From Sinomonas sp. R1AF57 (lineage in GTDB: Bacteria; Actinomycetota; Actinomycetes; Actinomycetales; Micrococcaceae): 64,000 nucleotides of DNA. The notes under the pieces were generated by a model. The model searched no databases and had not been told where the DNA came from. It saw only the letters and a list, made by a program, of their open reading frames with translations. The number at the start of each line of letters is the position of its first letter. Positions within the stretch are counted from its first letter, which is position 1. Where the stretch lies: NCBI RefSeq assembly GCF_002224485.1, contig NZ_CP022463.1:3355816-3419815 (forward strand), given 5' to 3'. Of the stretch, positions 44,537 to 60,292 are shown one piece after another. A program made the translations under genes and the position numbers.

Positions 44537-44659
44537 TGAAGCCTCCTCATCCGGCATCACTCGTGTAGATAATGCACGTTCGTCTTGAAATGTGAGTAAA
44601 TAGTGATCGTCATAGATCGCCTTGTCAAGGAACTCGAGGAGCGTCGATACGCTGTGAGC

Positions 44660-45356: not shown

Positions 45357-46070
45357 TCAGACTGCTCGGGAGCTGCCACCGTCGACGCGGATGTTCTGCC
45401 CGGTGATGTAGCTCGACTCGTCACTGGCGAGGAACCGGACGACACGCGCGACCTCCGCCGTGCTGGCAGCACGGCGGAGAGGGATGCGCGAGGTCCACTC
45501 GGCCGGGACGGTGCTGGGGTCCGGCTTGGTGAAGCCGGGCAGGACGTTGTTCATGCGGATGCCCTGCGGGCCGTACTCGTCCGCGTAGAGCTTGGCGAAC
45601 GAAGCAAGGCCGGCGCGGATGGTTGCCGAGACCGGGTAGGCAGGGTTCGGCTCGAAGGGTGAGCTCGTCGAGATGTTCACGATCGACCCGCCCCCGCCCT
45701 CCAGCATGAGGGGCGTGACAATGCGCGCCATGCGGACCACGTTCAGCAGACAGAGCTCCAGTCCGTCGAGCCAGTCCTGATCGCTCAGCTCGAGCACCTT
45801 GCCCTTCGCCGGGTGGCCGGTGCAGTTGACGACAGCATCGACACGGCCGTAGGCCGACACCGCCAGGTCGACAACCTCGCGGAGGTCGTCGACCGAACGG
45901 TTCGAACCGTCGACGCCGACGCCACCGAGGTCGCGCGCAAGGGCGGCGGCCCGGCCTGAGGGCGACAGCGCCGCGATGCGGTAGCCGGACGAGGCGAGCT
46001 CGGCGATGCTCGCCGCACCGATGCCGGATCCGCCGCCGACGACGATCGCGACCTTCCCCGGATCGGCCAT
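45357..46070 (-). CDS. Short-chain dehydrogenase-fold protein lacking the catalytic lysine
   Basis: A 237-residue SDR protein. The cofactor motif GGGSGIG is at 12-18, with VNCTG near 81-85, Ser134 (NISTSS) and Tyr145. The YxxxK lysine is replaced: Y145-P-V-S-A149, with R152 three residues on. The remainder (GIRMNNVLPGF, ITGQNIRVDGG) is canonical, so the subfamily either uses another base or has a different activity. It starts one base into the upstream TetR stop (shared TGATG), hence is translationally coupled to its likely regulator. Confidence 0.85.
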   Translation of the reverse strand: MADPGKVAIVVGGGSGIGAASIAELASSGYRIAALSPSGRAAALARDLGGVGVDGSNRSVDDLREVVDLAVSAYGRVDAVVNCTGHPAKGKVLELSDQDWLDGLELCLLNVVRMARIVTPLMLEGGGGSIVNISTSSPFEPNPAYPVSATIRAGLASFAKLYADEYGPQGIRMNNVLPGFTKPDPSTVPAEWTSRIPLRRAASTAEVARVVRFLASDESSYITGQNIRVDGGSSRAV

Positions 46071-46723
46071 CAGGAGTCCCCCTCCTTCGACTTCGCCTCG
46101 GCGCCGCGCTTCGCATAGTGTTCGGTCAGCAGGTCGACCGCCAGAGTCGACAGCTCGGCGAGCTCCTTGAAGTCGACGTCATCGCCGGCCGAGGCCGATA
46201 CGTAGAACCCCTCCGTCAGCGCGCGGCCGAAGGCCACGATCTTCCGCGCGAATTCCGGGTCCGCCCCGAGGGCCTCCGCCGGGAACTGTCCGCCCACCTG
46301 ACCCAAGGCGGTTTCGAACATGTCCGCGCGGATCTGAAGGTACTTCTGGCGCGCCTCGTTGTCCTCCAGACGCTTCTCGAGTGCGAAGACCAGGCCGATG
46401 ACCCAGAACGCGTGCTTCGCGTTGGCGGGGTTCGAGCGAGGGGCCGCCGCGCCCGCGATCGAGCTGCCCAGCAACTCGCGCTGGCTGCGTCCCCCGACCG
46501 AATCACGCCAGAGACCGAAGCAGTAGTCCAAGAGCGCGACGAACAGCTTCTCCTTGTTCTCGAAGTGCCAGTACACCGAGCCGATAGGGAGCCCGGAGAC
46601 GCGCGCGACCTCCGACATCGTCGTCCCCTCGTACCCCGCCTCAACCGCCAGGCCGAGGACCGCGTCCAGGATCGCCTTCTCGTTCTCCGGCGTCGTGTGG
46701 TGCACACTCCTGCGCTTGGCCAT
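46070..46723 (-). CDS. TetR-family regulator
   Basis: A 217-residue TetR protein. The DNA-binding domain reads AILDAVLGLAVEAGYEGTTMSEVARVSGLPIGSVYWHFENKEKLF (residues 17-61); the helical remainder carries a ligand pocket of unknown specificity. It is the first gene of a two-gene operon with the SDR protein. It ends in a Lys/Glu-rich tail. It may also act on the cluster that begins divergently at 47.1 kb. Confidence 0.87.
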   Translation of the reverse strand: MAKRRSVHHTTPENEKAILDAVLGLAVEAGYEGTTMSEVARVSGLPIGSVYWHFENKEKLFVALLDYCFGLWRDSVGGRSQRELLGSSIAGAAAPRSNPANAKHAFWVIGLVFALEKRLEDNEARQKYLQIRADMFETALGQVGGQFPAEALGADPEFARKIVAFGRALTEGFYVSASAGDDVDFKELAELSTLAVDLLTEHYAKRGAEAKSKEGDS

Positions 46724-47111
46724 GCTCCCTGCCTCCCTGGACCCGCAGCGCCTCGAAACCCTTGACGCCTGTGTGACCCACGATATACCGTCACATCAAT
46801 CCAGAATGCCCATTCTATAATTCAGGGAAGCAGCACGTGCGACCTGGACAATGGCTCCGCCTAGCGAGCCCAGAGCGTTCCGGCCGTCCCTGCGCAGCGC
46901 TTGCTCAGGGCACTGTCGCGGCCGGCGAATAGGGCCGCAGGACAGGAGACAGGGAAGCCGGCCGCTCGTTCTCCGCGCCTCACTTCACCCCGCAGACCGC
47001 GACAGCTATTCGGCCCGCTGCGAAAGCCATCCCCGCGGTCCGCTGCGATGCGCTTTGTGGATGCACTACCGCAGTAGTTTGTTAGAGTTGCAGAGTTACG
47101 AAAGAGGCGTC
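46724..47111. other. 388-base divergent region upstream of the catabolic island
   Basis: No gene is supported. It contains a TTGACG/TATACC pair (46762 and 46784, 16-base spacing) and TATAAT at 46816-46821 on the plus strand, and, near the right end, the ACTAC-CGCA-GTAGT palindrome at 47065-47078. It is clearly richer in AT than the surrounding genes. Confidence 0.5.
47065..47078. promoter_or_regulatory. Island operator, copy 1
   Basis: ACTAC-CGCA-GTAGT is a perfect 5-4-5 palindrome; its reverse strand reads CTGCGGTAGT, a variant of the TGCGCTAG motif found at six other promoters in the island. It is 34 bases before the crotonase ATG. Confidence 0.55.
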
Positions 47112-47759
47112 ATGGCGGCTGTTGTGAAATCAAGGATCGTGGACGGCGTAGGCGTGTTAACACTTGCCGACACTTCACGGGAAAATGTCCTATCGGAGGA
47201 ACTCGTCGGGCAAGCGCGGGATGTGCACCACTTGTTCCTCGAGAGTGATGTTCGCGTGGCGATCCTTGCCGCCGAGGGTTCCTCCTTCTGCTCCGGCCGT
47301 GATCCGCTTGCAGTGCGGGTGCCGGGGACGCAGCCCGCCGGAGCCATCCTCATCGACGAGATCGAGCGCTCGCCCCTGGCCTGGGTTGCGGCCGTTGACG
47401 GCCGTGCGATCGGCGCGGGCGTCCATCTCGTGACCGCCTGCATGCATGTCGTGGCCGGGCCAAACGCCCGTTTCCTCGTGCCCGAGCTGCTTCGCGGGAC
47501 CTACCCGCGGCCAGTGGCGGCCGAACTCGCACGGATCATCGGACCGCGGCGCACGATGGCGCTCATGCTTACGGGCGAGTCGTTCAACGCCACCTCGGCG
47601 GTGACGCTCGGGCTGGCGAGCGAGGCCGTGGGAGCCGGCGAGGTGGGAGGGCGCGCGCTAGCGCGCGCCCTCGCGCTCGCAGCGCTCGATCCGGCACTTC
47701 TGCAGTCCGCTCGCGTTGACTGGAGCACCCGCTTCACGACTTCGCAGACCACGGCCTGA
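47112..47759 (+). CDS. Enoyl-CoA hydratase/isomerase-family protein, short and possibly frameshifted
   Basis: A 215-residue crotonase-fold protein (GVGVLTLADTSRENVLSEELV, VRVAILAAEGSSFCSGRDP, WVAAVDGRAIGAGVHLVTACMHVVAGPNARFLVPELLRG). It would hydrate, isomerise or cleave an acyl-CoA. The usual length is about 250-260. In the frame starting at 47735 the reading continues coherently for 39 codons (HDFADHGLSALEGPGFGPLSAALAHLA and on) to TGA at 47852, with GC-rich third positions. One lost base near 47733-47737 would explain this. The ATG at 47112 follows AAAGAGG. Confidence 0.78.
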   Translation: MAAVVKSRIVDGVGVLTLADTSRENVLSEELVGQARDVHHLFLESDVRVAILAAEGSSFCSGRDPLAVRVPGTQPAGAILIDEIERSPLAWVAAVDGRAIGAGVHLVTACMHVVAGPNARFLVPELLRGTYPRPVAAELARIIGPRRTMALMLTGESFNATSAVTLGLASEAVGAGEVGGRALARALALAALDPALLQSARVDWSTRFTTSQTTA

Positions 47760-48125
47760 GCGCACTCGAAGGCCCAGGCTTCGGCCCGCTCAGTGCGGCA
47801 CTCGCGCATCTCGCAAGCGCGAATACGGGGTCAGTGGCCTCGGGAATGCCGTGAAGCGCGGCCGCGTCATAGCCGAAGCCCGCGCTCGGGCGCGGTTCGG
47901 CCTCGAGGGGCTCGGCGTGCGGCCCTTGTTCCTGGAGGTCCACACATGTCATCTTCGGCATTCCGAGGTTGACCGACCTCTCCGACGGCTTCGATCGGCT
48001 GCATCGCGGCGAGCTGGCGCGCGATGACCACCGACTTCAGCGCCGCCTGAGTGCGGGGAACGCACGCAAATAGTGCATCTCTGCGCTAGCAGGTCTAAGC
48101 TAGCAGAATGTGGAGGGAGGGTGTC
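47760..48125. other. 366-base gap between crotonase and nitroreductase genes
   Basis: The left 95 bases look like the displaced 3' end of the crotonase gene (frame ending 47854). Beyond it a frame ending at TAG near 48073 reads IFGIPRLTDLSDGFDRLHRGELARDD, which could be another gene scrap; parent not identified. The right end holds the nitroreductase promoter with the island operator. Confidence 0.35.
48081..48107. promoter_or_regulatory. Island operator, copy 2
   Basis: CTGCGCTAGC (48081-48090) is followed by AAGCTAGCAG (48098-48107), giving facing CTAGC/GCTAG elements 45 bases or fewer before the nitroreductase ATG. Confidence 0.55.
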
Positions 48126-48746
48126 ATGTGCGCACGCACGGTGGAACCGAATCATGCTGCCCGCACAACGGCGAACAGCGATGGCGCAGCGGCGACGACG
48201 TCGCTGACACCGCTACTGTTGCAGCGGTGGAGCCCGCGGTCGTTCGATCGTCTGGACGAGGTGTCCACGGCCGAGACCGACGCGCTCCTCGAGGCCGCCC
48301 GGTGGGCTCCGTCCTCGCGCAATGGCCAGTCGCGCCGCTTCGTCGTCGGACGTCGCGGCTGTGCGCTGTTCGAGCGGATCGCCGCGACGCTGAGCGGCCG
48401 GAACGCCGTGTGGGCACCGAACGCCGCGCTCCTCGTCGTCGGCGTCCTCATGCGCACTGACGAACAGGGACGCGCGCTCCGGTTCGCCGAGTACGATCTC
48501 GGGCAGGCCGTCGGCCACATGGCTGTGCAGGCGGAGGCGCTCGGCCTGCGGATGCGCCAGATGGGTGGCTTCGATCGCAACGCCCTCGCCGCGAGCCTCG
48601 CCCTCGATGCGGTGCACGAACCGTTCGTCGTTGCCGCCGTCGGGCGGCAGGCGCCGGCAGGCTGGCTCGACGCAGAGCTGGCCGAGCGGGAAGGGGCGGC
48701 GCGCGAGCGCCTGCCGCTGGCGGACCTCGTCCTCGCGAGGGACTAG
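48126..48746 (+). CDS. Nitroreductase-family protein
   Basis: A 206-residue FMN-dependent nitroreductase-fold protein: PLLLQRWSPRSFD (the phosphate-binding RxSxRxF-like start), LEAARWAPSSRNGQSRRFVVG, and EYDLGQAVGHMAVQAEALGLRMRQMGGFD. It would reduce a nitro, quinone or enone group, or dehydrogenate a substrate. The ATG at 48126 follows GGAGGGAGG; an ATG at 48108 lies within the operator region. First gene of the island with an unmistakable operator immediately upstream. Confidence 0.85.
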   Translation: MCARTVEPNHAARTTANSDGAAATTSLTPLLLQRWSPRSFDRLDEVSTAETDALLEAARWAPSSRNGQSRRFVVGRRGCALFERIAATLSGRNAVWAPNAALLVVGVLMRTDEQGRALRFAEYDLGQAVGHMAVQAEALGLRMRQMGGFDRNALAASLALDAVHEPFVVAAVGRQAPAGWLDAELAEREGAARERLPLADLVLARD

Positions 48747-48852
48747 ACGTCAGCGCCGGATCCGTCAACCACGGCGATCCGGGCACAATGCGATAATCGT
48801 CCAAATCAGAGAAAAGATCGGTGGCTCCCCTTTGACTACTACAGTCGAAGAA

Positions 48853-49461
48853 GTGAACAAGGCTCAGCGTTCGGCGGATGACGCGCCCAGTATCCTGGGC
48901 TTCGCGATCCTGCAACTCCTCTCCCGCATGCCGGCGAGTGGCTACGATCTGAAGGATCGCTTCCAGTCCTCGCTCGGCCGCGGCTGGCACGCGTACGACA
49001 CGCAGATCTACCGTGAGCTCAAGCGGCTGGAGGCCGCGGGCTTCACGGCGGGCGAGATCGTGAAGGGCCGGTCGGGCCCTCAGCGCCGTCTCTACACGAT
49101 CACCGACCGGGGCCTCGACGCGCTGCGTGAGTGGCTGTGCTCCCCGATCGACTTCTCGAAGACGAAGGAGGAGTTCCTCCTCCGTATCTGGACGCTTGAG
49201 CTGTTCCCTCCAGGGGAGGCGGAGGAGTTCCTCGTCCGCGCCCGCCACGAGTGGCACAGCCAGCTCCAGCATCAGCAGGCGTCACTGCGCACGCTGAACG
49301 ACTCCTACGGGGATGTCGACGAGGGTTCGTCAGACGTGTTCGCGCGGCAGCTGGGCATCGAGCTCACCATCGCGCTGACGAAGGCGCGGCTGAAGTGGAT
49401 CGAGCGAGCGCTCAAGGTGCTCGCCGCCCGGGCTGCCGCCTCCGGGCCTGAATCGCACTAA
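48853..49461 (+). CDS. PadR-family regulator, candidate master regulator of the island
   Basis: A 202-residue PadR protein: ILGFAILQLLSRMPASGYDLKDRFQSSLGRGWHAYDTQIYRELKRLEAAGFTAGEIVKGRSGPQRRLYTITDRGLDALREWL read in order is the winged helix with recognition helix and wing, followed by a helical C-terminal domain (EEFLLRIWTLELFPPGEAEEF). PadR proteins of this type respond to phenolic acids. GTG at 48853 is used; TTG at 48832 is possible and neither has a strong ribosome site. Its position within a set of promoters sharing one motif makes it the first candidate to bind that motif. Confidence 0.82.
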   Translation: MNKAQRSADDAPSILGFAILQLLSRMPASGYDLKDRFQSSLGRGWHAYDTQIYRELKRLEAAGFTAGEIVKGRSGPQRRLYTITDRGLDALREWLCSPIDFSKTKEEFLLRIWTLELFPPGEAEEFLVRARHEWHSQLQHQQASLRTLNDSYGDVDEGSSDVFARQLGIELTIALTKARLKWIERALKVLAARAAASGPESH

Positions 49462-49641
49462 TGCTCCCATAGAAAGAGTCCACATCCCTCCCGTCGATGG
49501 CCGCCGCACCCGGCGGGCTGAGGACGGCCTGTCTCACCGATGACCGACATCCCGCGACATTTCGCTGTCGAGCTGCTCCCGCGCGCCTGCGGACCAGTGC
49601 CGACGCGTGATCGACAGCGAACGGATTCACGCTCATGGCTA

Positions 49642-49659
49642 CTAGCAAGATGCGCTAGC
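49642..49659. promoter_or_regulatory. Island operator, copy 3
   Basis: CTAGC-N7-GCTAG (49642-49658) contains ATGCGCTAGC (49650-49659), about 85 bases before the dehydrogenase ATG. The rest of the gap 49462-49741 shows nothing else. Confidence 0.6.
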
Positions 49660-49741
49660 TTCGCCCTATGCTTGAACTTGGGTCTGCGACTCGTCGGCGC
49701 GAGACAGTGCGGCCTCGCGCATCTCAAAGGAGAGGACGCAC

Positions 49742-50659
49742 ATGAGTGTGGGTTACATCGGACTGGGCAGGATGGGCGGAAACATGGCCCTGCGGCTGCT
49801 CGAGTGTGGCGTCGATCTCGTCGTCACGGACGTCAGCAAGGACCAGGCGGGTGCTGTTCTGGAAGCAGGGGCCCGCTGGGTCGACACCGCCGCGGAGGTG
49901 GCCGCCGAGGCGGATGTCATCTTGACATCGCTCCCCGGGCCGCCGCAGGTGGAACAGGTCGCGGCCGGCCCGGGCGGGCTCCTCGAGGGCATGCGCCCGG
50001 GGTCCGCGTGGGTCGACATGAGCACCAGCTCCCCCGTCCTCATCCGCGCACTCGCCCAGCGCTTCGCCGAGAAGGGCGTGGACGTCATCGACGCTCCCGT
50101 CAGCGGTGGACCGCAGCACTGCCGAGCGGGCGAGCTGGTGATCTTCGTGGGTGCGGAGGACGAACAGCTGGCGCGTGTGGAACCTGTCCTCCAGCACCTC
50201 GCGACGGAGATCCTGCACATCGGCGCCCTCGGCGCGGGTGCGGTCGCGAAGCTCGTCAACAACGCGACAGCGCTCGGCACGTGGAGCCTGCTCTCTGAGG
50301 TTTTCAGCCTTGGCGTGAAGGCAGGCGTCGACCACCAGACGCTGCACGGCATGCTGTCGAAGGGTGCGTACGGGCGCGGCCTCATCCTGTCGCAGATGCT
50401 CCCAGGCGTCGCCTTCAAGCACAACTTCGACCCCGCGGGCTTCGCGCTCAACCTTGGGCGAAAGGATATCGCCCTCGCGAACGCGCTAGGACGTGACCTC
50501 AACGTGCCGCTGCCCGTCCTGAACCTCGTCGAGCAGTCCGCCGTTGAGATGGTCGGCCGTGGCCACGGCGATAAGGACACCGCCGTCGTGTTCAGCCTCC
50601 AGGAGGAGCGCGCCGGCGTGGTCATGCACGACGGCGACGCGAAGGAGTTCACCCTGTGA
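49742..50659 (+). CDS. 3-hydroxyisobutyrate dehydrogenase-family oxidoreductase
   Basis: A 305-residue beta-hydroxyacid dehydrogenase. The NAD(P) motif GYIGLGRMGGNMALRLLE is at residues 4-21, the substrate-binding DAPVSGGPQHCRAGEL near 118, and the catalytic lysine in GAGAVAKLVNN (about residue 170). It oxidises a beta-hydroxyacid or reduces a semialdehyde. Its stop overlaps the GTG of the aldehyde dehydrogenase gene by four bases, which suggests that the two catalyse consecutive steps. The ATG at 49742 follows AAAGGAGAGG. Confidence 0.88.
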   Translation: MSVGYIGLGRMGGNMALRLLECGVDLVVTDVSKDQAGAVLEAGARWVDTAAEVAAEADVILTSLPGPPQVEQVAAGPGGLLEGMRPGSAWVDMSTSSPVLIRALAQRFAEKGVDVIDAPVSGGPQHCRAGELVIFVGAEDEQLARVEPVLQHLATEILHIGALGAGAVAKLVNNATALGTWSLLSEVFSLGVKAGVDHQTLHGMLSKGAYGRGLILSQMLPGVAFKHNFDPAGFALNLGRKDIALANALGRDLNVPLPVLNLVEQSAVEMVGRGHGDKDTAVVFSLQEERAGVVMHDGDAKEFTL

Positions 50660-52113
50660 GCGAGCTGGTCGTGGTTCCGCTGCACATCGGCGGTGAGGAC
50701 GTCGCCGCTGGCGGGGGGACATACGTCGTCGTCAACCCGTCCACGGAGAAACCCTTCGGCGAGGCCCCGGAGGCGACGATTGCCGATGTCCAGGCCGCGG
50801 TCGACGCCGCGAACGCGGCCGCGCCTGCCTGGGCTGCCACGCCGCGGCGGGAGCGCGCGCGACTGCTCCACGCGCTGGCCGACCGGCTCGACCAGGAGCG
50901 AGGACGCCTCGTGCCGTGGCTGGGTGCCGAGATGGGAGGGGTCCAGAACGGCTCGGCAGGACGCACGCTCGACGTCGCGATCGAGGCATTCCGCGCATTC
51001 GGCGAACGAGCCAACCTCGACCTCTCCGAGAACTACGCGCCGCGCGTGTCGATGGGTGAGGTCGTATCCGGTGTCGCGCGGCGCAGGCCGGTCGGCGTCG
51101 TCGCCGTCATCGCCGCGTACAACGCCCCGCTCGTGAACACCTCCACGATGGCGGGCCCGGCACTCGCCGCCGGCAACACCGTCATCATCAAGCCAGCCCC
51201 GCAGGACCCCCTGACGACCCTGGAACTCGCCCGGATCGCGACCGAGGTCGGCTTCCCACCCGGCGTCGTGAACACGGTCAACGCCGTCGATCCGGAGATC
51301 GGGCGCGAGCTCGTACGCAATGCCGGCGTGCACGGCGTCGGATTCACGGGCAGCCCGACGGTGGGTGTGGAGATCGCCCAGGCCGCGGCCGCGCAGCTGA
51401 AGCCGGTGCTCCTCGAACTCGGCGGCAAGGGCGCGTGCATCGTGCTCGACGACGCCGACCTCGACATCGCCGTGAACGTCCTGTCGCTCACGTGGCGGAT
51501 GCACTCGGGCCAGATCTGCGGCGCGCCGACCCGCGCGATCGTGCACGAGTCCGTCCGGGACGAGCTTGTCCGTCGGCTCGCCGCCGTCGCGGAGACGCTC
51601 GTCGTCGGCCCCGGCGACCACCCGCAGACGACCGTCGGCCCCGTGATCAACGGCGGTCACCGCGACCGCATCGAGGGCTACATCGCCTCGGCGCGCGAAG
51701 CGGGGGCGACGACGGCCGTCGGCGGTAGCAGACCAGACGTCTCACCGGGGTTCTACGCCGCACCGACGCTGCTCGTCGACTGCACGCCGGACATGGCGGC
51801 CGTCCGTGAGGAGATCTTCGGTCCGGTCATCTCGATGATCACGATCACCGAGGACGACGAGGCGGTCGCGATCGCGAACGACAGCGACTACGGCCTGGTG
51901 AACTACGTCGTCTCCGGGAACAGCGCACGCGCGCTCTCGATCGCGGAGCGGCTGGAGTCCGGCGTCGTCAGCATCAACACGCCGCAGAGCGCCGGCAACG
52001 GCATCGAGGAGATGCCGTTCGGCGGTCGCAAGCTCAGTGGCTTCGGCCGCAAGGGCGGTATCCACGCGATGCTCGCCTTCACCGAGCCGGCGGGCATCGT
52101 GCTCCGGAGTTGA
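50656..52113 (+). CDS. NAD(P)-dependent aldehyde dehydrogenase
   Basis: A 485-residue ALDH. The catalytic glutamate lies in LLELGGKGACIVLDDADLD and the catalytic thiol is Cys288 in HSGQICGAPTR. The family's KPAPQDPLTTLELARI, GFTGSPTVGVEIAQ and C-terminal EEIFGPVISMI and MPFGGRKLSGFGRKGG are intact. It oxidises an aldehyde from the preceding dehydrogenase or the P450/monooxygenase steps. The GTG start at 50656 is coupled to the previous gene. Confidence 0.9.
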   Translation: MSELVVVPLHIGGEDVAAGGGTYVVVNPSTEKPFGEAPEATIADVQAAVDAANAAAPAWAATPRRERARLLHALADRLDQERGRLVPWLGAEMGGVQNGSAGRTLDVAIEAFRAFGERANLDLSENYAPRVSMGEVVSGVARRRPVGVVAVIAAYNAPLVNTSTMAGPALAAGNTVIIKPAPQDPLTTLELARIATEVGFPPGVVNTVNAVDPEIGRELVRNAGVHGVGFTGSPTVGVEIAQAAAAQLKPVLLELGGKGACIVLDDADLDIAVNVLSLTWRMHSGQICGAPTRAIVHESVRDELVRRLAAVAETLVVGPGDHPQTTVGPVINGGHRDRIEGYIASAREAGATTAVGGSRPDVSPGFYAAPTLLVDCTPDMAAVREEIFGPVISMITITEDDEAVAIANDSDYGLVNYVVSGNSARALSIAERLESGVVSINTPQSAGNGIEEMPFGGRKLSGFGRKGGIHAMLAFTEPAGIVLRS

Positions 52114-52126
52114 TGAACTCGACATA

Positions 52127-52152
52127 TAGCGCACTATTGTGTTAGCTAGCTA
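52127..52152. promoter_or_regulatory. Island operator, copy 4
   Basis: TAGCGCACT (52127-52135; AGTGCGCTA on the other strand) followed by TGTTAGCTAGCTAG, upstream of the binding-protein gene with a leader of about 125 bases. Confidence 0.55.
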
Positions 52153-52274
52153 GAGCCGATACCTTCGTATTCATCGCCCCAAGTCTTCTCCCGGGCACCA
52201 AACGACGCCCAAGTCGTCCCCGCGGAGTCGTATGAGAGTCACAAACAATTGCATGATCTGACAAGGAAGTCACC

Positions 52275-53324
52275 ATGAACAAGATCCTGTCCGCCATCGG
52301 CGTCGGCGTGGTCGCGCTGCTCGCCCTCACGGCTTGCGGCACTGCCGCGGCAGAGACGCCCGCGAGCACCGCGGCCGCCGTCGAGGCCGGAAACCTGGAC
52401 GCGCTCGTCGCGGCCGCCAAGAAGGAAGGCACGTTGCGCATCTACGGGCAGATCCCGGAGGCGTCAATGACGGCCCTCTCCAATGACTTCCAGAAGAAGT
52501 ACGGCATCACGGTCGAGGCCCTGCGCCTCGGCGGCAACACCCTCGCGCAGCGGTTCGACACCGAGACCCAGGCCCACACCCCGAGCGCAGACATGATCGT
52601 CGTGGTCGACGTGCAGTACCTCGCGACCGCCGCGAAGGCCGGCTCGGTGGTCGCGTACTCGAAGTCGGGCGTGGCCGACCTTCTCGACCTCCCCAAGGAA
52701 GCCGTCTTCAGCGACTACGACGCGCCGAGCGTGCAGGTACTCGACACGGGCTTCATCTACAACACGGACAAGGTGAGGAAGAGCGAGATTCCGACGACAT
52801 GGTCGGCGCTGGAAGACCCTAGCTGGAAGGGCCGGTACTGCGCCGTCGACCCGGGCACGTCCGTGAACGTCGCCCACTCCTTCTGGTCCGTCGGCCAGAA
52901 GGAAGGGGCCGACGCCCTGAAGAAGCTCGGCGAGAACATCGGTCGGTGGTACCCGAACGTCATCGCAATGAACGAGGCCGTCGCGGTGGGCGAATGCCAG
53001 CTGGGCCTGTTCAGCGCGAAGTTCTTCGTCGCAGGCATGCAGGGCAACGGGGCGAAGGTCGAGTTCGCCACGGCACCCTCCAGCGTCCCGCCGCTCGTCT
53101 CCGCGGCCGTCGCGGCGAAGGCGGAGCACCCGAATGCCGCACGCCTGTTCATGGAATACCTCCTCAGCAAGGAGGGAAACGCGGTCCTGAACAACCCGGA
53201 CACCGGTTCGATCGGACCCTGGGACATGGCCCGCCTGCCAGCCGGGTTCTCGGCTCCGACGCCGGACGACTTCCAGCGCGTGCATGAGGCTACGCCGGAC
53301 GTCATCAAGGCTCTCGGTCTCTGA
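52275..53324 (+). CDS. ABC-importer substrate-binding lipoprotein (ferric/organic-ion type)
   Basis: A 349-residue binding protein. The signal peptide ends in a lipobox (LLALTAC, cysteine about 21), so it is lipid-anchored outside the cell. The body matches family-1 ferric/thiamine/2-aminoethylphosphonate-type binders: LVAAAKKEGTLRIYGQIPEASMTALSNDFQKKYGI, VLDTGFIYNTDKV, PTTWSALEDPSWKGRYC, HPNAARLFMEYLLSKEG. It is paralogous to the protein at 63219. The permease and ATPase genes lie 5.2 kb downstream. The ligand may be an aromatic or organic acid rather than iron, given the catabolic setting. Confidence 0.88.
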   Translation: MNKILSAIGVGVVALLALTACGTAAAETPASTAAAVEAGNLDALVAAAKKEGTLRIYGQIPEASMTALSNDFQKKYGITVEALRLGGNTLAQRFDTETQAHTPSADMIVVVDVQYLATAAKAGSVVAYSKSGVADLLDLPKEAVFSDYDAPSVQVLDTGFIYNTDKVRKSEIPTTWSALEDPSWKGRYCAVDPGTSVNVAHSFWSVGQKEGADALKKLGENIGRWYPNVIAMNEAVAVGECQLGLFSAKFFVAGMQGNGAKVEFATAPSSVPPLVSAAVAAKAEHPNAARLFMEYLLSKEGNAVLNNPDTGSIGPWDMARLPAGFSAPTPDDFQRVHEATPDVIKALGL

Positions 53325-53348
53325 TCCGAGACTCGGCGTGACGACCCT

Positions 53349-53387
53349 CGCGGGCACGGTCCAGCTGTCGCCACGATCGTGCCCGCG
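53349..53387. terminator. Hairpin terminator after the binding-protein gene
   Basis: CGCGGGCACG (53349-53358) pairs perfectly with CGTGCCCGCG (53378-53387); 19-base loop. It explains why the binding protein can be made in excess of its neighbours. Confidence 0.65.
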
Positions 53388-53442
53388 CGGCGCGCCCCAG
53401 AGGCCGTCCGCGCCGGTCTCATTCCGTTGTAAGAAGAGATAA

Positions 53443-53453
53443 AGTGCGTTAGC
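53443..53453. promoter_or_regulatory. Island operator, copy 5
   Basis: AGTGCGTTAGC lies 44 bases before the cytochrome P450 ATG, next to an AT-rich stretch (AAGAAGAGATAAA). Confidence 0.5.
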
Positions 53454-53496
53454 TTGACCTCAGTTCCCGTGATCGACGACGCCTGCGGAGGCACAC

Positions 53497-54705
53497 ATGA
53501 TGGACCAAGAGACAATTTCGCCCGAATCCGACTTCGACCCGATGGCCGACGAGTTCACGGCGGACCAGCACAGGGAGCTCAAGCGGCTGCGCGAAGAATC
53601 GCCCGTCGCGTACTCCTCGCAGTTCGGGGGATTCTGGGCGCTCACGCGCCGTGCCGACCTCGTCAATGCGGCGCGCAACCATGAGCAGCTGATCAACTCG
53701 ATCCTGCATACCGTGCCGCACGGGCTTGCCGGCAACACCCGCCCGCTCATGCACTCGGACCAACCAGAGCACACGATCTACAAGGACGTCATCCAGAAGG
53801 TCCTCGGAAGTGACGAACTCCGTGACCGGGTGGTGTCCGAGGTGCGTCAGCGCGCCAAGGAGCTCGTCGCGAAGATCGCTTCGGAAGGCACGGGTGACCT
53901 CGCCACCGAGTACGCAGATCCGCTGATGGGCTTCGCAATCACATCGATCTTCAACATCGAAGAGGTCACGGGCGACGAGATGGACCGGACCATCCGCGAC
54001 TACGTCATCGGAGGCCAGGTGCGTGCGGCGCAGCTCGCCCAGGACGCGAGCGCCAGGATGTTCAGCATCACGAAGAACCTCCTCGACGACCGCAGGGAGA
54101 ACCCGCGAGACCCGTCGACCGACCTCGCCACGGCGCTCGTCCAAGCGCAGGAGGCCGGCATCCTCGTCGACGAGGAGAAGGTTCTCGGCGCGCAGCGGCA
54201 GCCCCTCGTCATCGTGTGGCTGGCCACCGCGCACACGCTGACGAACATCTTCCGGCGACTCCTCACCGACCACGGGCTCACAGCGAAGCTGCGGGCCGAG
54301 CCAGAGCTCATCGCCGACTCGGTCGACGAGTTCCTCCGCATGGACCAGCCGCAGATCGGCTTCGCCCGCTCCAGCACCGTCGACCTCGAGTTCGGCGGAC
54401 GCCGCATCCCGGCCGGCTCCGCGATCGCGCTCGTCTTCCCGGCGGGCAACCGCGACCCCGAGGCATTCGAGGACCCGGAGACGTTCATGATCGGCCGCAC
54501 TCCGAACCCGCACCTCGCGTTCGGCCACGGCATCCACAGCTGCCCGGGCAGGAGCATCGCACGGGGATTGGTGCAGACCGCAATCGAGGAACTCCTTGCG
54601 GGCACCGCGGACTTCGAGCTCTCGATCCCGGTCTCCGAGGTTCCGAACGAGCACTGGCCCTTCCGAGCGTCGCTGTCCCTTCCCGCGACGGTCCAGGCGC
54701 GGTAG
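53497..54705 (+). CDS. Cytochrome P450 with an unusual I-helix
   Basis: A 402-residue bacterial class I-type P450. The heme loop FGHGIHSCPGRSIAR holds Cys349; the K-helix ExxR is EFLR. The I-helix oxygen-activation motif, normally AGxET or AGxDT, reads A-T-A-H246-T247, so the acid is histidine. Such changes occur in P450s with peroxide-driven or atypical chemistry. No ferredoxin or ferredoxin reductase gene is nearby. The ATG at 53497 or the next codon is the start. Substrate unknown. Confidence 0.92.
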   Translation: MMDQETISPESDFDPMADEFTADQHRELKRLREESPVAYSSQFGGFWALTRRADLVNAARNHEQLINSILHTVPHGLAGNTRPLMHSDQPEHTIYKDVIQKVLGSDELRDRVVSEVRQRAKELVAKIASEGTGDLATEYADPLMGFAITSIFNIEEVTGDEMDRTIRDYVIGGQVRAAQLAQDASARMFSITKNLLDDRRENPRDPSTDLATALVQAQEAGILVDEEKVLGAQRQPLVIVWLATAHTLTNIFRRLLTDHGLTAKLRAEPELIADSVDEFLRMDQPQIGFARSSTVDLEFGGRRIPAGSAIALVFPAGNRDPEAFEDPETFMIGRTPNPHLAFGHGIHSCPGRSIARGLVQTAIEELLAGTADFELSIPVSEVPNEHWPFRASLSLPATVQAR

Positions 54706-54749
54706 ACCGTGGCCTGCCTCGCGACGCTGGCGCATCCCGCCGTCGCGCG

Positions 54750-55982
54750 GTGAACTCGCGCCAGGCACACGGGGGGCACGGGCTGGGCGTCGGGGGGTTC
54801 ATTCTCCTCGCCGCCCTGTCGGGGCTCTCGCCCCTCACCAGCGTGTTCATCCTCCCGGCCCTTCCAGAACTAGCGGACGATCTACACACCAGCCTGTCCG
54901 GTGCGCAGTTCGCCCTCTCCGCGGGGTTCGCGGGACTCGCGGTCGGTCTTCTCATGGTTGGTCCACTCAGCGACCGGCACGGTCGCCGCGCGCCGCTCAT
55001 TCTCGGCCTCGTGGCCTACATCGCGACGACGGTGCTGTGCTCCTTCGCACCCGACATCGCGACGCTCATTGTCTTCCGGGCGCTGCAGGGGGTCTGCGGC
55101 GGGGCGGTGTGGGTGATCACCCGGGCCGTCGTGCGGGACTCTTACGCGGGGCAGGCGACGGCCCGCGTGCTCTCGCAGATGTCGATGGTGACCGCACTCG
55201 CTCCCGTGGTCGCGCCATCCCTCGCCGGACAGCTCCTCCTGTTCACGGACTGGCGCGGCCTGTTCCTCGCCCTGGCGGCGTTCGGCGCCGTCGTAATGTC
55301 CATGGGCGTGCTGTTCATGCGGGAGACTCTGCTCGTCGAGCGTCGGCAGAACAATGATCTGCGCGCTCAGCTCGCCGTGATCCATGGATTCTTCCGCGCG
55401 CCCTACTACTTCCTGTCGTTCGCCGCCCTGGGCGTCGTGCAGTCGGCGATGTACTTCACGTTCGTCATCATGAGCCCGTTCGTCTTCGTCGACGACTTCG
55501 GGATGACCGCCCAGCAGTTCGGCATGCTGTTCGGCGTCGCCGCGCTCATGATGGCGCTCGGGAACCAGTCGAACGTGCTGCTGCTACGCAGATGGAGGCC
55601 GGAGACCGTGCTGCGCTTCCTGCTCACGATCGCATTCGTCGGATCGGTCGCATACCTCGTGGCGGTCGTGCTGCATGCGCCACTGTCACTCGTGATCGTC
55701 GCCGTGCTTCTCGTCCCGCTGGCCGCGGGCGCCTCGAACGCCGACATCACCGCGTTGACGCTCGCACCGTTCCCACACGCCGCGGGTTCGGCGGCCGCGC
55801 TGCTGGGAGCATGCCAGTTCGGCGTGGCGGCCCTCGTGCCGCCGCTCGTGTCGCTTGCCGGCGTCAGCGCGCTCTCGATGGCCCTCACCATGCTCGTGAC
55901 AGCGGTCGGGGCGTGGTGGATCGGCATAGCGATGCGGGCCAGGCGGGGCTTGCCAGCCGACCCGGACCCGGTCGCAGCCTGA
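54750..55982 (+). CDS. MFS drug-resistance transporter, Bcr/CflA-like
   Basis: A 410-residue, 12-helix efflux-type transporter. Helix 1 and loop 2-3 match the DHA1 Bcr/CflA group: LSPLTSVFILPALPELADDLHTS, then VGPLSDRHGRRAPLILG, RALQGVCGGAVWVITRAVVRDSY. It may export a toxic intermediate or take up the substrate. The GTG start at 54750 has no clear ribosome site. It lies 44 bases after the P450 gene and is probably co-transcribed. Confidence 0.85.
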   Translation: MNSRQAHGGHGLGVGGFILLAALSGLSPLTSVFILPALPELADDLHTSLSGAQFALSAGFAGLAVGLLMVGPLSDRHGRRAPLILGLVAYIATTVLCSFAPDIATLIVFRALQGVCGGAVWVITRAVVRDSYAGQATARVLSQMSMVTALAPVVAPSLAGQLLLFTDWRGLFLALAAFGAVVMSMGVLFMRETLLVERRQNNDLRAQLAVIHGFFRAPYYFLSFAALGVVQSAMYFTFVIMSPFVFVDDFGMTAQQFGMLFGVAALMMALGNQSNVLLLRRWRPETVLRFLLTIAFVGSVAYLVAVVLHAPLSLVIVAVLLVPLAAGASNADITALTLAPFPHAAGSAAALLGACQFGVAALVPPLVSLAGVSALSMALTMLVTAVGAWWIGIAMRARRGLPADPDPVAA

Positions 55983-56089
55983 GCCCGGCGCATTCCGCCT
56001 AACGCAGATTTCTAGTACACACTCGCGGCTGTCATCAGAGCTTTCAACCGAAATATCGCCTATTAAGATGACATCCCGGTCCTTATCAG

Positions 56090-56098
56090 TAGCGCATT
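56090..56098. promoter_or_regulatory. Island operator, copy 6
   Basis: TAGCGCATT (AATGCGCTA on the other strand) lies about 80 bases before the YciI ATG in an AT-rich promoter segment (56040-56110). Confidence 0.5.
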
Positions 56099-56180
56099 AG
56101 TTCTTTTCATGCCAAGATGTCTGTGGGACGTGCGGAACCTCCAACCGGACCCAACGCATCTATCTCGACAACGGAGTGAC

Positions 56181-56582
56181 ATGGAAGCGAAGCACATGCT
56201 TTCCGGCACGCTCGGACGCACGCTCTACGTCGTACACAGCGAGCCCGCCGAGGGTGTCGACCCTGCGGCTGGCGTCGCATACCTCGAGGAGCACCTCCGC
56301 CGCCTCACCGAATGGGAGCGCAACGGCGTCCTTTTCGCGGCGGGACCCTACAAGCGCGAGGGCAAACCCACCCCACGCGCGCTGTACATCCTCCGGGCGG
56401 CCAGCCTCGCCGAGGCCACCAGGCTGGCGGCCGAAGAGCCGCTCCACAAGCACGGCGTACGCGTCTTCACGATCGACGAATGGGCCCTCAACCAGGGACG
56501 CATCAACGTCTCCCTCGACTTCTCAACTCAGCGCGGCGGGCTGGACGGCGCGCCGCAGTACCCCGCACACCTCAACGACTAG
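56181..56582 (+). CDS. YciI-family protein of the island
   Basis: A 133-residue YCII-domain protein: LYVVHSEPAEGVDPAAGVAYLEEHLRRLTEWERNGVLFAAGPYKREG carries the family histidine pair, followed by LYILRAASLAEATRLAAEEPLHKHGVRVFTIDEWALNQG. Some YciI proteins act in aromatic catabolism, for example TftG, which removes chloride from a chlorohydroxyquinol made by a two-component flavin monooxygenase. Here it is also directly upstream of a two-component monooxygenase, so a follow-up elimination or isomerisation step is plausible. The ATG at 56181 follows CGGAGT. Confidence 0.85.
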   Translation: MEAKHMLSGTLGRTLYVVHSEPAEGVDPAAGVAYLEEHLRRLTEWERNGVLFAAGPYKREGKPTPRALYILRAASLAEATRLAAEEPLHKHGVRVFTIDEWALNQGRINVSLDFSTQRGGLDGAPQYPAHLND

Positions 56583-56597
56583 GCGGCAAGGAGCATC

Positions 56598-57779
56598 ATG
56601 ACCACTGCAAGCGCACAGCGGGACGTCACAGCCGAGGCGGTCATCGACCGCGTCAAGGCACTGATCCCCACGATCGCGGAGCGGGCCGCCGAAGGCGACC
56701 GCGACCGCAGCGTCCCGGCCGAGATCGTGGCCGCCCTCGTTGAGGCCGGCGTCGCAAGGGTCCTCGTTCCTGCCGCCTTCGGCGGCGCGGAGCTGGGCCT
56801 CGAAACCTGGTTCGAGATCGTCCACGAGATCGCCAAGTCGGACATGTCCACCGCGTGGATCGCCAGCCTCGCGATGCACCACCCCCACTACATCGCGCAG
56901 TTCCCGCTCGCGGCGCAGGAGGAGGTGTGGAGGGACGGACCCGATGTCGTCATCGCAGCCTCCATCGCGCCCGTCTGCAAGATCGAGCCGGTCGAGGGCG
57001 GCTACCGCGTGACCGGCCGTTCGCCGTTCACGAGCGGGATCAACAACAGCACGTGGGCCATGGTGAGCGGCTTCGTGCCGGGGTCCGGTCCCGGTCCGGA
57101 CTGGCGCTTCTTCCTCATGCCGGTGAGCGACTACGAGGTGCTCGACACCTGGGACGTCGTCGGCATGCGGGGCACCGGCAGCAACACGATCGTGACGGAG
57201 GGCGTCTTCGTCCCCGAGCACCGCGTGCTCGCCTATGCGGACCTCAACGAGGGCGTATCCCCCGGCTCAAAGGTGCACGACAACCCGATGTACGCGCTGC
57301 CGTTCAAGTCGTACTCGTCGCTGACGTTCTCCGTGCCGATCCTCGGCGCCGCGCGCGGGGTGTACGAGAAGTTCGTCGCCTGGACTGCCAGCCGCGTCGC
57401 GGCCGGCGGTGCGGCGGTCCGCGACTTCACGAGCGTGCGCGTCAAGCTGTCGCGCGCCGCCGCCAGCATCGATGCGGCGGAGCTGATGCTGCGCCGCATC
57501 CTCGACACAGCGATCGGACCGGTCCGACCGACCGAGGACGACCGCGCGCGTGCGATGCGTGACTACTCCCGGGCCGTGGAGCTCGCGGTCGAGGCGATCG
57601 ACGCGCTCGTCGCCATCGGCGGCTCGGCCGTGTTCGGAGCCTCGCATCCGATCCAGCGCGCATGGCGTGACGTGCACTTCGCGAGCACGCACATCTCGCT
57701 CAATCCAGAGACCAACTACGACCACTACGGCCGGCTCGCTCTGGGCATGGGCCGTGCCCCGCAGAACCTCAGCTACTGA
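56598..57779 (+). CDS. Flavin-dependent monooxygenase, oxygenase component (acyl-CoA dehydrogenase fold)
   Basis: A 393-residue protein of the group that includes HsaA, DszC and the C2 4-hydroxyphenylacetate hydroxylase. It has the acyl-CoA dehydrogenase fold (EAGVARVLVPAAFGGAELGLETWFEIVHEIAKSDMSTAWIASL, GYRVTGRSPFTSGINNSTWAM, VVGMRGTGSNTIVTEGVFVPEHR) but is paired with a flavin reductase 29 bases downstream. It would hydroxylate a phenolic ring, or oxidise a hetero-atom, using reduced flavin supplied by that reductase. A true acyl-CoA dehydrogenase is the alternative; the reductase partner argues against it. Confidence 0.85.
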   Translation: MTTASAQRDVTAEAVIDRVKALIPTIAERAAEGDRDRSVPAEIVAALVEAGVARVLVPAAFGGAELGLETWFEIVHEIAKSDMSTAWIASLAMHHPHYIAQFPLAAQEEVWRDGPDVVIAASIAPVCKIEPVEGGYRVTGRSPFTSGINNSTWAMVSGFVPGSGPGPDWRFFLMPVSDYEVLDTWDVVGMRGTGSNTIVTEGVFVPEHRVLAYADLNEGVSPGSKVHDNPMYALPFKSYSSLTFSVPILGAARGVYEKFVAWTASRVAAGGAAVRDFTSVRVKLSRAAASIDAAELMLRRILDTAIGPVRPTEDDRARAMRDYSRAVELAVEAIDALVAIGGSAVFGASHPIQRAWRDVHFASTHISLNPETNYDHYGRLALGMGRAPQNLSY

Positions 57780-57808
57780 GGCCTGCGGAAGAAGACAGGG
57801 GTGAGGGC

Positions 57809-58330
57809 ATGACGGCAGATACGGAGACCCGACGTCGCTTCCGCGACGTCATGGGTCGCTTCGCGACCGGGGTGACCGTGATCACTACACAGTCCGAGGG
57901 TCAAACGCACGGCATGACGGCCAACGGCTTCATGTCGGTGTCCCTGGAGCCGCCGCTCGTGGTCATCTCGGTGCGCTGCGAATCCAAGATGATCGGCTCG
58001 ATCGACGCGGCAGGCGCCTATGGCGTGAGCGTGCTCGGCTTCGAGCAGGCGTTCCTCAGCAGGCACTTTGCGGGTCGCCCTGCGGAGGGCCTCGAGGAGC
58101 CGTTCGTCGAGATCGACGGCATCCCGCTCATCCGGGGCGCCATCGCCCACATTGCGGCGAAAGTGGTGGACCGACACGTGGTCGGCGACCATGTCCTGTT
58201 CGTGGGCGAGGTCACGACGGCGGAGCACGTCTCGGGCGATCCGCTCATCTTCCATGGCGGCAGCTACCACGCGCTGTCTGACATGGGCGAGTGGACGGCA
58301 CGTTGGAACGTGGCCGGCGGGTGGTGGTGA
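57809..58330 (+). CDS. Flavin reductase component of the two-component monooxygenase
   Basis: A 173-residue HpaC/HsaB-type NAD(P)H:flavin oxidoreductase: FRDVMGRFATGVTVITTQSEGQTHGMTANGFMSVSLEPPLVVISV, CESKMIGSIDAAGAYGVSVL and the terminal GDPLIFHGGSYHAL. It supplies reduced FMN or FAD to the oxygenase encoded just upstream. The ATG at 57809 follows GGGTGAGGG. Last gene of the yciI-oxygenase-reductase unit. Confidence 0.92.
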   Translation: MTADTETRRRFRDVMGRFATGVTVITTQSEGQTHGMTANGFMSVSLEPPLVVISVRCESKMIGSIDAAGAYGVSVLGFEQAFLSRHFAGRPAEGLEEPFVEIDGIPLIRGAIAHIAAKVVDRHVVGDHVLFVGEVTTAEHVSGDPLIFHGGSYHALSDMGEWTARWNVAGGWW

Positions 58331-58374
58331 CCGCTCGGCTACCGCATCCAGAGGTTCTAGTAAATAGGCAACTA

Positions 58375-58397
58375 TTGCGCTAGATAACTGCGGTAGA
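58375..58397. promoter_or_regulatory. Island operator, copy 7, doubled
   Basis: TTGCGCTAGA (58375-58384) and CTGCGGTAGA (58388-58397) are direct repeats 13 bases apart, the clearest pair in the island, upstream of the importer permease unit. Confidence 0.65.
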
Positions 58398-58482: not shown

Positions 58483-58542
58483 ATGAAGACGCTCCTTTCC
58501 CAAACCGGCACGAGCACTCACGCGGCAGGTGCTGATGATTGA
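58483..58542 (+). other. 19-codon leader reading frame overlapping the permease start
   Basis: ATG at 58483 follows AAAGAGG and encodes MKTLLSQTGTSTHAAGADD, stopping at 58540-58542, seven bases inside the permease gene. Its leader and first codons resemble those of the binding-protein gene at 52275 (AAGGAAGTCACC ATG AAC AAG). It could be a coupling leader peptide or the 5' stub of a deleted binding-protein gene. Confidence 0.45.
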
Positions 58543-60292
58543 CACGTCGACGGTGGCCGGCGCCGGGATCCGCTCCGTGCGGCCCAGGCGCTTCCGCGCC
58601 CCATCCCCCTTCGCCGCGATGTCCCTGACCCTCGCACTCGTCATGATCGCGATCACTGTGGCGTCCGTCGGAACAGTGATCGTGAGCATGTTCGTTGCCC
58701 AAGGGTCGCCCGCGGTCTCCGTTCTCACCGATCCGCGCACGTGGCAGCTCGTCGGCGCGACTGCGATCATCACGAGCGCCAGCACGATTATTGCCTCCCT
58801 GATCGGCGGCGGCCTTGCGTGGCTCAATGAGCGGACGAACGCCCGGATGGGAATCTTCTCCGACATCCTGCCGCTGATGAGCTTCCTGCTCCCGCCCGTG
58901 GCAGGATCGCTCGGCTACATCCTGCTGTTCGCGCCCAAGGCCGGGTACGTGAACCAGGCATGGCGCGGGTTCCTCTCGCTCTTCGGCGTCATCGACGCCG
59001 CACCGCTACTGGACATCTACAGCTGGGCCGGTCTCATCATCGTCTTCTCCGTCTACGGCGTGCCGTTCACGTACATGATGATCGCGCCCGCGCTCCGAAT
59101 GATGGACTCGGGGTTGGAGGAGGCAGCGCGCATGTTCGGCGCCGGTCCGATCCGGACGATGTTCCGGGTCACGCTCCCCGCGGTCCTCCCAGCAATGGGG
59201 GCCGGCGCGTTCCTCTGGATCTGGGTCTCCTTCTCGATGGTCGACATCCCGTTGATGATCGGCACGGGGGCGCGGATCGAGGTCCTCGCCTCGCGGATCG
59301 TCCAGCTCCTCGCGTTCTCATATCCCGCAAACCGGCCAGGTGCGGTCGGCCTCAGCCTCATCATCACGGCCGTCGTGCTCATCGCGTGGTTCATCCAGTC
59401 CCGCATCCTCCGTGCGAGCAAGCACGCGACGGTCGGAAGCAAGGGTGCCAAGACTGCTCCGGTGGACCTCGGAAGGTGGCGTACGCCGGCGCGCATGTTG
59501 GTTATCGTGTACTCCGCCGTCACGATCCTGCTGCCGGCACTCGCACTGATCTACGTCTCCCTCGCAGGCACGTGGCGCAGCGGGATCTCGCTTGAGGGAC
59601 TGACCTTCAATGAGTTCGCGAAGATCTTCTCGAACCCGTACACACTCGCGGGTCTGCGGAACAGCTTCGGCCTCGGCCTGCTCACGTCGACGATCGTGGT
59701 GCTCATCGCGGCGATCATCGCCCTCTACGTCGCGCGGGCCGGTTCCTTCACGGGCCGACTTGTTGACGCGGGCATCAAGCTGCCCGCGACGCTCGGAACC
59801 GTTGTGCTCGTGGTCGGCATGGTGCTGCTGTTCACGGGCGCCCCGTTCCACCTTGGCGGAACGCTTACCATCCTCTTGATCGCCTACACAACGCTGAGCC
59901 TGCCGAACGCCTCGGTGTCGGCGGATGCCGCCGTTGCCGGCGTGGGCAACTCACTCACGGAGGCCGCACGGATGTCCGGGGCGAGCGAGAGCCGCACGTT
60001 CTTCCGCGTCATCTTCCCACTCCTCATCCCCGGCCTCGTCGGGGCCTGGGCCGCCGTGTTCGTCCGCTCGGTGGGCGACCTCACGGCGTCGTCGATGCTC
60101 TCCGGCGCCAACAACCCGGTGATCGGCTTCCAGATCCTGGAACAGAGCAGGTACGGATCATACGCAACTACCTCGGCCCTGTCCTTCACGCTCGCCGTCG
60201 TCTCCTCCATCACCGTGCTCGGCGCGGTCTGGATCGGCCGCCGGAGCAGCCGGTGGACCCAGGCCTCCACCACCCGTTCTCGAAAGCGTTAG
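58535..60292 (+). CDS. ABC importer permease, two fused membrane domains (FbpB type)
   Basis: A 585-residue permease with about twelve transmembrane helices forming two transporter halves. Both EAA coupling motifs are visible: EEAARMFGAGPIRTMFRVTLPAVLPAMGAG (about residues 190-220) and EAARMSGASESRTFFRVIFPLLIPGLVGAW (about 475-505). Such fused permeases serve ferric-ion, thiamine or aminoethylphosphonate importers. The ATG at 58535 follows GGCAGG; a GTG two codons earlier is possible. It pairs with the ATPase 20 bases downstream and with the binding protein at 52275 and/or 63219. Confidence 0.9.
   Translation: MIDTSTVAGAGIRSVRPRRFRAPSPFAAMSLTLALVMIAITVASVGTVIVSMFVAQGSPAVSVLTDPRTWQLVGATAIITSASTIIASLIGGGLAWLNERTNARMGIFSDILPLMSFLLPPVAGSLGYILLFAPKAGYVNQAWRGFLSLFGVIDAAPLLDIYSWAGLIIVFSVYGVPFTYMMIAPALRMMDSGLEEAARMFGAGPIRTMFRVTLPAVLPAMGAGAFLWIWVSFSMVDIPLMIGTGARIEVLASRIVQLLAFSYPANRPGAVGLSLIITAVVLIAWFIQSRILRASKHATVGSKGAKTAPVDLGRWRTPARMLVIVYSAVTILLPALALIYVSLAGTWRSGISLEGLTFNEFAKIFSNPYTLAGLRNSFGLGLLTSTIVVLIAAIIALYVARAGSFTGRLVDAGIKLPATLGTVVLVVGMVLLFTGAPFHLGGTLTILLIAYTTLSLPNASVSADAAVAGVGNSLTEAARMSGASESRTFFRVIFPLLIPGLVGAWAAVFVRSVGDLTASSMLSGANNPVIGFQILEQSRYGSYATTSALSFTLAVVSSITVLGAVWIGRRSSRWTQASTTRSRKR

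Follow-up and report, generated by a model that had tools for sequence, protein, structure and literature searches.

A 20-bp inverted repeat shared by promoters of a catabolic island in Sinomonas sp. R1AF57, with a PadR-family regulator as its candidate reader

A 64-kb window of the Sinomonas sp. R1AF57 genome (the window being the whole stretch of DNA analysed, 64,000 nucleotides) carries an island of genes that are catabolic by their predicted products, and a short motif, TGCG[CTG]TA[GC], recurs ahead of one gene after another in this island. The locus raises the question of whether this octamer marks a shared operator and, if so, which of the regulators encoded nearby reads it. A preliminary description had treated the octamers as a candidate regulon, naming a PadR-family regulator as the first choice of reader and a TetR-family regulator as the second. 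Here we report a 20-bp inverted repeat, cTAgCGcA-N4-TgCGcTAg, of which the octamer is a single arm, and we give a probability of roughly two in three to a model in which the PadR protein would read this operator, repress the island and be released by a substrate or intermediate of the pathway. Coordinates of all features are collected in Table 1.

The octamer as one arm of an inverted repeat

The octamers lie where the preliminary description had placed them, each shifted by only 1-2 bases. The site at 52127, whose minus strand reads TGCGCTAT, falls outside the pattern given there; one site, TGCGTTAG at 55999-56006 (minus strand), had been overlooked. Written as TGCGBTAS, the pattern has 18 matches in the window against 4.9 expected, a count reached by none of 100 shuffles, and 451 in the genome (3,939,870 bp); some of the window matches fall in coding DNA, such as the one at 45977 inside an SDR gene. 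The narrower form TGCGYTAG is rarer, with 25 matches on both strands of the 3.94-Mb genome. Five of these (48082, 49651, 53445, 55999 and 58376) lie in the window within 10.3 kb (genome 3403897-3414198), where about 0.07 would be expected by proportion (our own arithmetic, for a region picked after the fact), and a further one lies at genome 3421559, 1.7 kb past the window end and directly before a second P450 gene. Overlap with coding DNA failed as a discriminator in this GC-rich genome, where mechanically called open reading frames (ORFs) of at least 100 codons cover 16 of 19 distant TGCGYTAG matches and 4 of 6 island places; the intergenic position of the island sites is based on Pfam-supported gene boundaries. 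Among the titles listed in a literature search with the letters of the octamer, none concerned this subject.

An expectation-maximization motif search was carried out on nine intergenic stretches, eight within the window (46724-58528) and one before the second P450 gene (L033:2476-2900, L033 being the genome stretch from 3419000 onward, which runs past the window end). With a 20-base palindromic model the search settled on cTAgCGcA-nTAn-TgCGcTAg at a log-likelihood of 53.6-54.2, above all 100 dinucleotide-shuffled sets (mean 31.0, sd 2.8, maximum 41.1), and a 14-base non-palindromic model likewise exceeded all 100 (46.9 versus a maximum of 42.9). On these results the octamer is an arm of a two-armed site. 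A description by the octamer only was rejected, since the 20-mer also takes in the 52127 site, which becomes the top-scoring site despite its misfit to the octamer pattern, as well as sites in an Arthrobacter island that do not have the octamer (see below). Two palindromes pointed out earlier, CTAGC-N7-GCTAG and ACTAC-CGCA-GTAGT, both exist, the 20-bp inverted repeat being the unit common to the sites. Distances from site to start codon measure about 18-165 bp, so that the range of 30-150 previously given proved slightly too narrow.

Each region was then judged by leave-one-out, comparing the best 20-mer of the held-out region with AT-matched windows from a 420-kb control cut into overlapping windows. 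None of the AT-matched windows scored as well as operator 1 (0/197; 0/4266 among all control windows), operator 4 (0/18; 0/10420), operator 6a (0/5; 0/8508) or operator 7 (0/16; 4/8508), and few did so for operator 2 (7/1262; 8/4750) or the stretch before the second P450 gene (2/56 AT-matched windows). The P450 promoter of the window (operator 5) was equalled or surpassed by 338 of 2456 AT-matched windows and the gap before the PadR gene by 107 of 359, while in the gap of operator 3, a site missing from the list of 20-mers scoring at least 11 in the motif search, the best 20-mer lies elsewhere and at chance level (53/560). A clear full site is present in six of the nine regions. Of the other three, the HIBADH and P450 promoters each show a single good arm and the stretch ahead of the PadR gene shows no arm. 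A shared operator stands before several linked transcription units, in one-armed form at two of the seven window promoters.

These results bear on the reading of the octamer as no more than a product of AT-rich promoter composition or a -10-like element. The sites do sit in AT-richer gaps, some overlap TA-containing hexamers and three of the nine gaps fail leave-one-out; yet AT-matched windows rarely score as high at the other six regions (three of the control sets being small, with 5, 16 and 18 windows), the observed scores are seldom attained when these gaps are dinucleotide-shuffled, and the 20-mer is more frequent in the island than in a 380-kb control sample. The stronger arm also points either way relative to the gene; -10-like hexamers are visible by eye just 3' of operators 2 (TAAGCT, 48096) and 3 (TATGCT, 49667), unsupported by a promoter scan. 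On the strength of the motif-search shuffles, the leave-one-out comparison and the shuffles of individual stretches described below, a composition artefact was rejected as very improbable.

Sites past the window and in a second genus

A matrix was built from the eight window sites only, and scored against a flat background, which by itself gives no credit for AT-richness. At a score of at least 11, it has two matches in 380 kb of control genome and none in the first 46,000 bases of the window (1-46000), against three in the first 10.5 kb of L033, none in the rest of L033 and four in L081, a 20.6-kb locus of an Arthrobacter metagenome-assembled genome (MAG). Among 40 shuffles of each whole locus, L081 yielded 0.25 matches on average (maximum 2) and L033 1-10500 yielded none. 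A matrix scan had been proposed as a check in the preliminary description, whose cluster-wide candidate regulon gains support in that a matrix drawn from the window finds sites both past the window and in the Arthrobacter island.

A calibrated sequence model from the same eight sites (R1), which at E<=10 recovers only its eight training sites in the window, finds four places in L033 at this threshold, all upstream of genes. When these L033 stretches were shuffled 1000 times, the observed score was reached 0 times for the P450/MmgE stretch, 9 times for RraA and 0 times for VOC; the VOC and RraA sites are the only wholly new ones.

A protein search of genome contigs with the PadR sequence identified two loci. 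One, in Sinomonas cellulolyticus, has a PadR that is 99% identical in DNA that is 97% identical, and the other is L081, with a PadR 59% identical to that of the window. L081:1-20558 is a rearranged version of the island, encoding a flavin reductase, a GMC oxidoreductase, an ABC ATPase and permease, a P450, the PadR, a monooxygenase, an MFS transporter, a binding protein, HIBADH, an aldehyde dehydrogenase (by DNA similarity) and MmgE/PrpD, with an FAA hydrolase at one end. The locus covers 20.6 of the 26.0 kb of its contig, about 5.4 kb lying outside the domain scan, and the scan took in 18 of its 42 ORFs of at least 130 amino acids, the 24 others including many overlapping frames; among those 18, the PadR alone is a regulator. 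Of the first four R1 places in L081 (in order 3830, 13218, 9746 and 16509), three fall in gaps and the other at a gene junction, and in 1000 shuffles of each stretch their scores were reached 0, 0, 2 and 2 times. The model's E-values here are weak, 0.1-1.3 in 20 kb. Conservation is mostly confined to the CTA...TAG frame and its 20-bp spacing, which three of the four sites show clearly. Operators of this type hence accompany an orthologous PadR in another genus, with four such sites in L081 as the one independent relative.

The PadR-family regulator as candidate reader

The PadR protein matches PF03551 (PadR; 1.6e-13, 50.9 bits, cut-off 27), indicating the N-terminal winged helix, and PF10400 (Vir_act_alpha_C; 1.8e-5, 25.8 bits, cut-off 22.4) over residues 110-196. 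By these predicted domains, a winged helix and a large multi-helix C-terminal domain, it has the tested features of subfamily 1, in which the C-terminal domain spans 80-90 amino acids (PMC3506622). Relatives in the PDB include 5x11 (E 2.5e-18) and 5z7b (E 2.2e-16). We take the former to be Bacillus subtilis PadR and the latter VanR.

Between the window and Arthrobacter proteins, 57 of 75 residues of the winged helix (19-93) are identical (76%), versus 52 of 111 C-terminal residues (94-205; 47%). With a shared operator one would expect the DNA-reading part to be selectively conserved in this way, though such a pattern is common among regulators in general. The recognition helix DTQIYREL is found in the three PadRs of this clade only; the 29 other relatives, namely the best-scoring family loci fetched in the PadR search of family genomes, have DSQIYPEL (27) or KAQVYRTL (2). 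The best-scoring other match in that search of 395 family genomes (a sample overlapping those of order and class) was 40% identical, no match at E<=1e-40 besides the gene itself was found in 396 order and 394 class genomes, and 128 plasmid records were all below 60% identity. The co-occurrence of PadR with the sites and its conserved, distinctive recognition helix favour it as the first-choice regulator, in agreement with the preliminary description.

If the operator is real, its reader might instead be another regulator, either one with a distant gene or the nearby IclR protein, whose gene ends 1.7 kb from operator 1, with PadR as a passenger: we infer the PadR-operator interaction from sequence, and PadR's own gap holds no good site. 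Set against this, the Arthrobacter island keeps 20-bp-type sites together with PadR and shows no IclR among the 18 ORFs scanned (of 42, in 20.6 of the 26.0 kb), and the PadR winged helix is selectively conserved, so that we regard a different reader as unlikely. The TetR-family regulator, earlier ranked second, is divergent from the first target gene with operator 1 in the gap between, which speaks in its favour. Its promoter, though, holds a different palindrome, AGAATGCCCATTCT, with AGAATNNNNATTCT occurring three times in the genome, and no copy of AGAATNNNNATTCT was found in the Arthrobacter genome (about 4.0 Mb; a MAG, possibly incomplete), yet the island there has 20-bp-type sites. TetR was rejected as reader of these sites on both grounds and is the least probable of the candidates.

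Several observations weigh against a PadR-read operator throughout the island. Not every site has two arms: as full palindromes, those of the HIBADH and P450 promoters are unremarkable in leave-one-out, and the gap before the PadR gene (about 85 bp) lacks a good site by the same measure. The plain consensus is not enriched genome-wide: CTAGCGCA-N4-TGCGCTAG with at most three mismatches occurs at 16 places in the genome, three of which are these operators, and a reversed control at 30. When the entire genome is searched with R1, operator 4 before the binding protein is the single place at E<=10, and over the whole Arthrobacter genome the model reaches this threshold nowhere. The promoter scan placed no promoter-like site over any operator (1 found, 0.8 expected). 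The stretch before the second P450, which holds both the P450 and the MmgE sites, belonged to the discovery set, so that the motif register was set with this stretch in view, and a matrix match at L033:8759 (score 10.6) lies in coding DNA. In L081, the site at 3830 overlaps the last bases of the GMC frame, the fifth and weakest R1 place (10018) is inside padR coding DNA, and the octamer is kept in one of the four sites only, that between P450 and PadR. A comparison of the window with S. cellulolyticus shows operators to be no more conserved, at the level of significance, than other intergenic bases (5/192 versus 74/1663, P = 0.34). Finally, Arthrobacter provides a single independent PadR orthologue.

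Repression is the usual mode of PadR-family proteins. For this reason, and because VanR, the closest functional analogue, represses, we propose that PadR would act here as a repressor. A PadR homodimer would occupy the 20-bp operator, one winged helix per arm; symmetric binding of inverted repeats has been reported or modelled for members of the PadR family (PMC3506622, PMC5050560). Bound at the promoters, it would keep the island repressed, including the crotonase, nitroreductase-PadR, dehydrogenase-pair, ABC importer, P450 and YciI/flavin monooxygenase units and, past the window, the second P450, MmgE/PrpD, RraA and VOC genes. Since the gap of about 85 bp before the PadR gene has no good site, PadR may be autoregulated via the nitroreductase promoter. 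Release of PadR would be brought about by a substrate or intermediate of the pathway, the probable inducer being an acid of aromatic or terpenoid type. The operator of VanR is an inverted repeat with a 4-base spacer as well, its letters differing from those here; among the titles listed in a literature search with its letters, none concerned VanR. VanR of Corynebacterium glutamicum resembles the proposed system as a PadR-type repressor of an actinobacterium acting on an aromatic catabolic operon, vanABK, with a transporter (PMC8358305); it differs in controlling one operon, against about ten promoters here, and has a known inducer, being inhibited in vitro by vanillate (PMC8358305).

The PadR/LmrR-type regulators share with the window protein the PadR winged helix and, for subfamily 1, the large C-terminal domain, but their canonical operator is ATGT-N8/10-ACAT (PMC3506622, PMC5050560), whereas the consensus cTAgCGcA-N4-TgCGcTAg has CTAGCGCA/TGCGCTAG in place of those arms and is paired with the helix DTQIYREL. 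The ATGT/ACAT operator is not universal, as cdPadR1 of Clostridium difficile departs from it too (PMC5050560). The motif of that protein is an inverted repeat as well, found ahead of many genes and in part as half-sites, but the protein belongs to subfamily PadR-s2 and uses an AT-rich core with arms TACT-N11/12-AGTA (PMC5050560). A bolder version, to which we would give somewhat worse than even odds, is that a rare PadR clade whose recognition helix has changed, with DTQIYREL replacing DSQIYPEL, reads a new operator class, CTAGCGCA-N4-TGCGCTAG, as master switch of an island of about 27 kb, with full and one-armed sites setting different promoter thresholds and TetR with its three-site palindrome forming a second tier.

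If PadR does read these sites, the island would be a single switchable regulon. A loose list of octamers becomes a testable regulon in which a 20-bp operator recurs at about ten promoters, a single repressor is the candidate and a second species is involved. It would delimit the genes acting together in an uncharacterised P450/flavin-monooxygenase catabolic island, make the inducer a handle for finding the island substrate, and pair a natural change in a PadR recognition helix with a non-canonical operator.

Gene content and the second palindrome

Table 1. Operators, regulators and genes of the island. Positions are those of the window unless prefixed by L033 or L081.
Feature	Position	Strand	Sequence	Context or basis
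Operator 1	47066..47085		CTACCGCAGTAGTTTGTTAG	before crotonase (ATG 47112); gap shared with TetR gene
Operator 2	48070..48089		ATAGTGCATCTCTGCGCTAG	before nitroreductase gene; PadR downstream of nitroreductase
Operator 3	49639..49658		TGCGCTAG (one strong arm)	before HIBADH-like dehydrogenase/aldehyde dehydrogenase
Operator 4	52126..52145		ATAGCGCACTATTGTGTTAG	before solute-binding protein; best site
Operator 5	53433..53452		TGCGTTAG (one strong arm)	before P450
Operator 6a	55999..56018		CTAACGCAGATTTCTAGTAC	upstream of YciI; overlooked earlier
Operator 6b	56089..56108		GTAGCGCATTAGTTCTTTTC	upstream of YciI
Operator 7	58364..58383		ATAGGCAACTATTGCGCTAG	before ABC permease
Extra half-site	58389..58396	+	TGCGGTAG	adjoins operator 7
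R1 site	L033:2559			before second P450
R1 site	L033:2853			before MmgE/PrpD
R1 site	L033:9550			before RraA (start taken as ATG 9634, not TTG 9487)
R1 site	L033:10328			before VOC gene
R1 site	L081:3830			GMC/flavin-reductase junction
R1 site	L081:9746			between P450 and PadR
R1 site	L081:13218			before MFS
R1 site	L081:16509			between binding protein and HIBADH
Separate palindrome	46803..46816		AGAATGCCCATTCT	TetR promoter; genome 3402618-3402631
PadR-family regulator	48832..49461	+		start taken as TTG 48832; alternative GTG 48853
TetR-family regulator	46070..46723	-		Pfam; candidate reader of AGAAT-N4-ATTCT palindrome
IclR gene	44603..45340			
Crotonase (enoyl-CoA hydratase/isomerase)	47112..47759	+		Pfam
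Nitroreductase-family protein	48126..48746	+		Pfam (from ATG 48108)
HIBADH-like dehydrogenase	49742..50659	+		Pfam
Aldehyde dehydrogenase	50656..52113	+		Pfam
ABC solute-binding protein	52275..53324	+		Pfam
Cytochrome P450	53497..54705	+		Pfam
MFS transporter	54750..55982	+		Pfam
YciI-like protein	56181..56582	+		Pfam
HsaA/HpaB-type flavin monooxygenase (acyl-CoA dehydrogenase type 2 fold)	56598..57779	+		Pfam
Flavin reductase	57809..58330	+		Pfam
ABC permease	58535..60292	+		Pfam (from GTG 58529)

The flavin monooxygenase matches the NCBIfam HsaA model at 5.4e-99 with 331.5 bits, below the cut-off of 450. The window P450 is 57% identical to a paralog just past the window (L033:1231-2475); a search for its relatives returned this paralog and then three other genomes at 33-35%, and the nearest solved P450s include CYP125 and P450cin. 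Relatives of the binding protein in plasmids comprised 86 records, all below 60% identity. The solute-binding protein (52275-53324 and L033:35-1081) and MmgE/PrpD (61780-63162 and L033:2901-4442) are, like the P450, present twice in the island, as if it consisted of two related modules. Farther past the window, in L033:8147-15561, genes of the RraA/CHA-aldolase-like and FAA-hydrolase types precede those for a Rieske oxygenase (LigXa type) and an extradiol dioxygenase (LigB type), likely a protocatechuate- or gallate-type 4,5-cleavage branch.

The 3.94-Mb genome has exactly three copies of the second palindrome, AGAATNNNNATTCT: in the TetR promoter (3402618), before an MFS transporter of the aromatic acid type (3436609) and before a gene at 3438206 that is extradiol dioxygenase-like by eye and lay outside the family searches, the latter two copies being at L033:17610-17623 and 19207-19220. 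The three promoters suggest a second regulon beside the PadR one, probably run by TetR. The MFS promoter region (L033:17486-17627) is made up of two adjoining pieces resembling the flanks of the TetR gene (window 45975-46038 and 46744-46820), with identities of 89% (64 bp) and 87% (77 bp), and looks as though copied from the SDR-TetR region minus the TetR gene.

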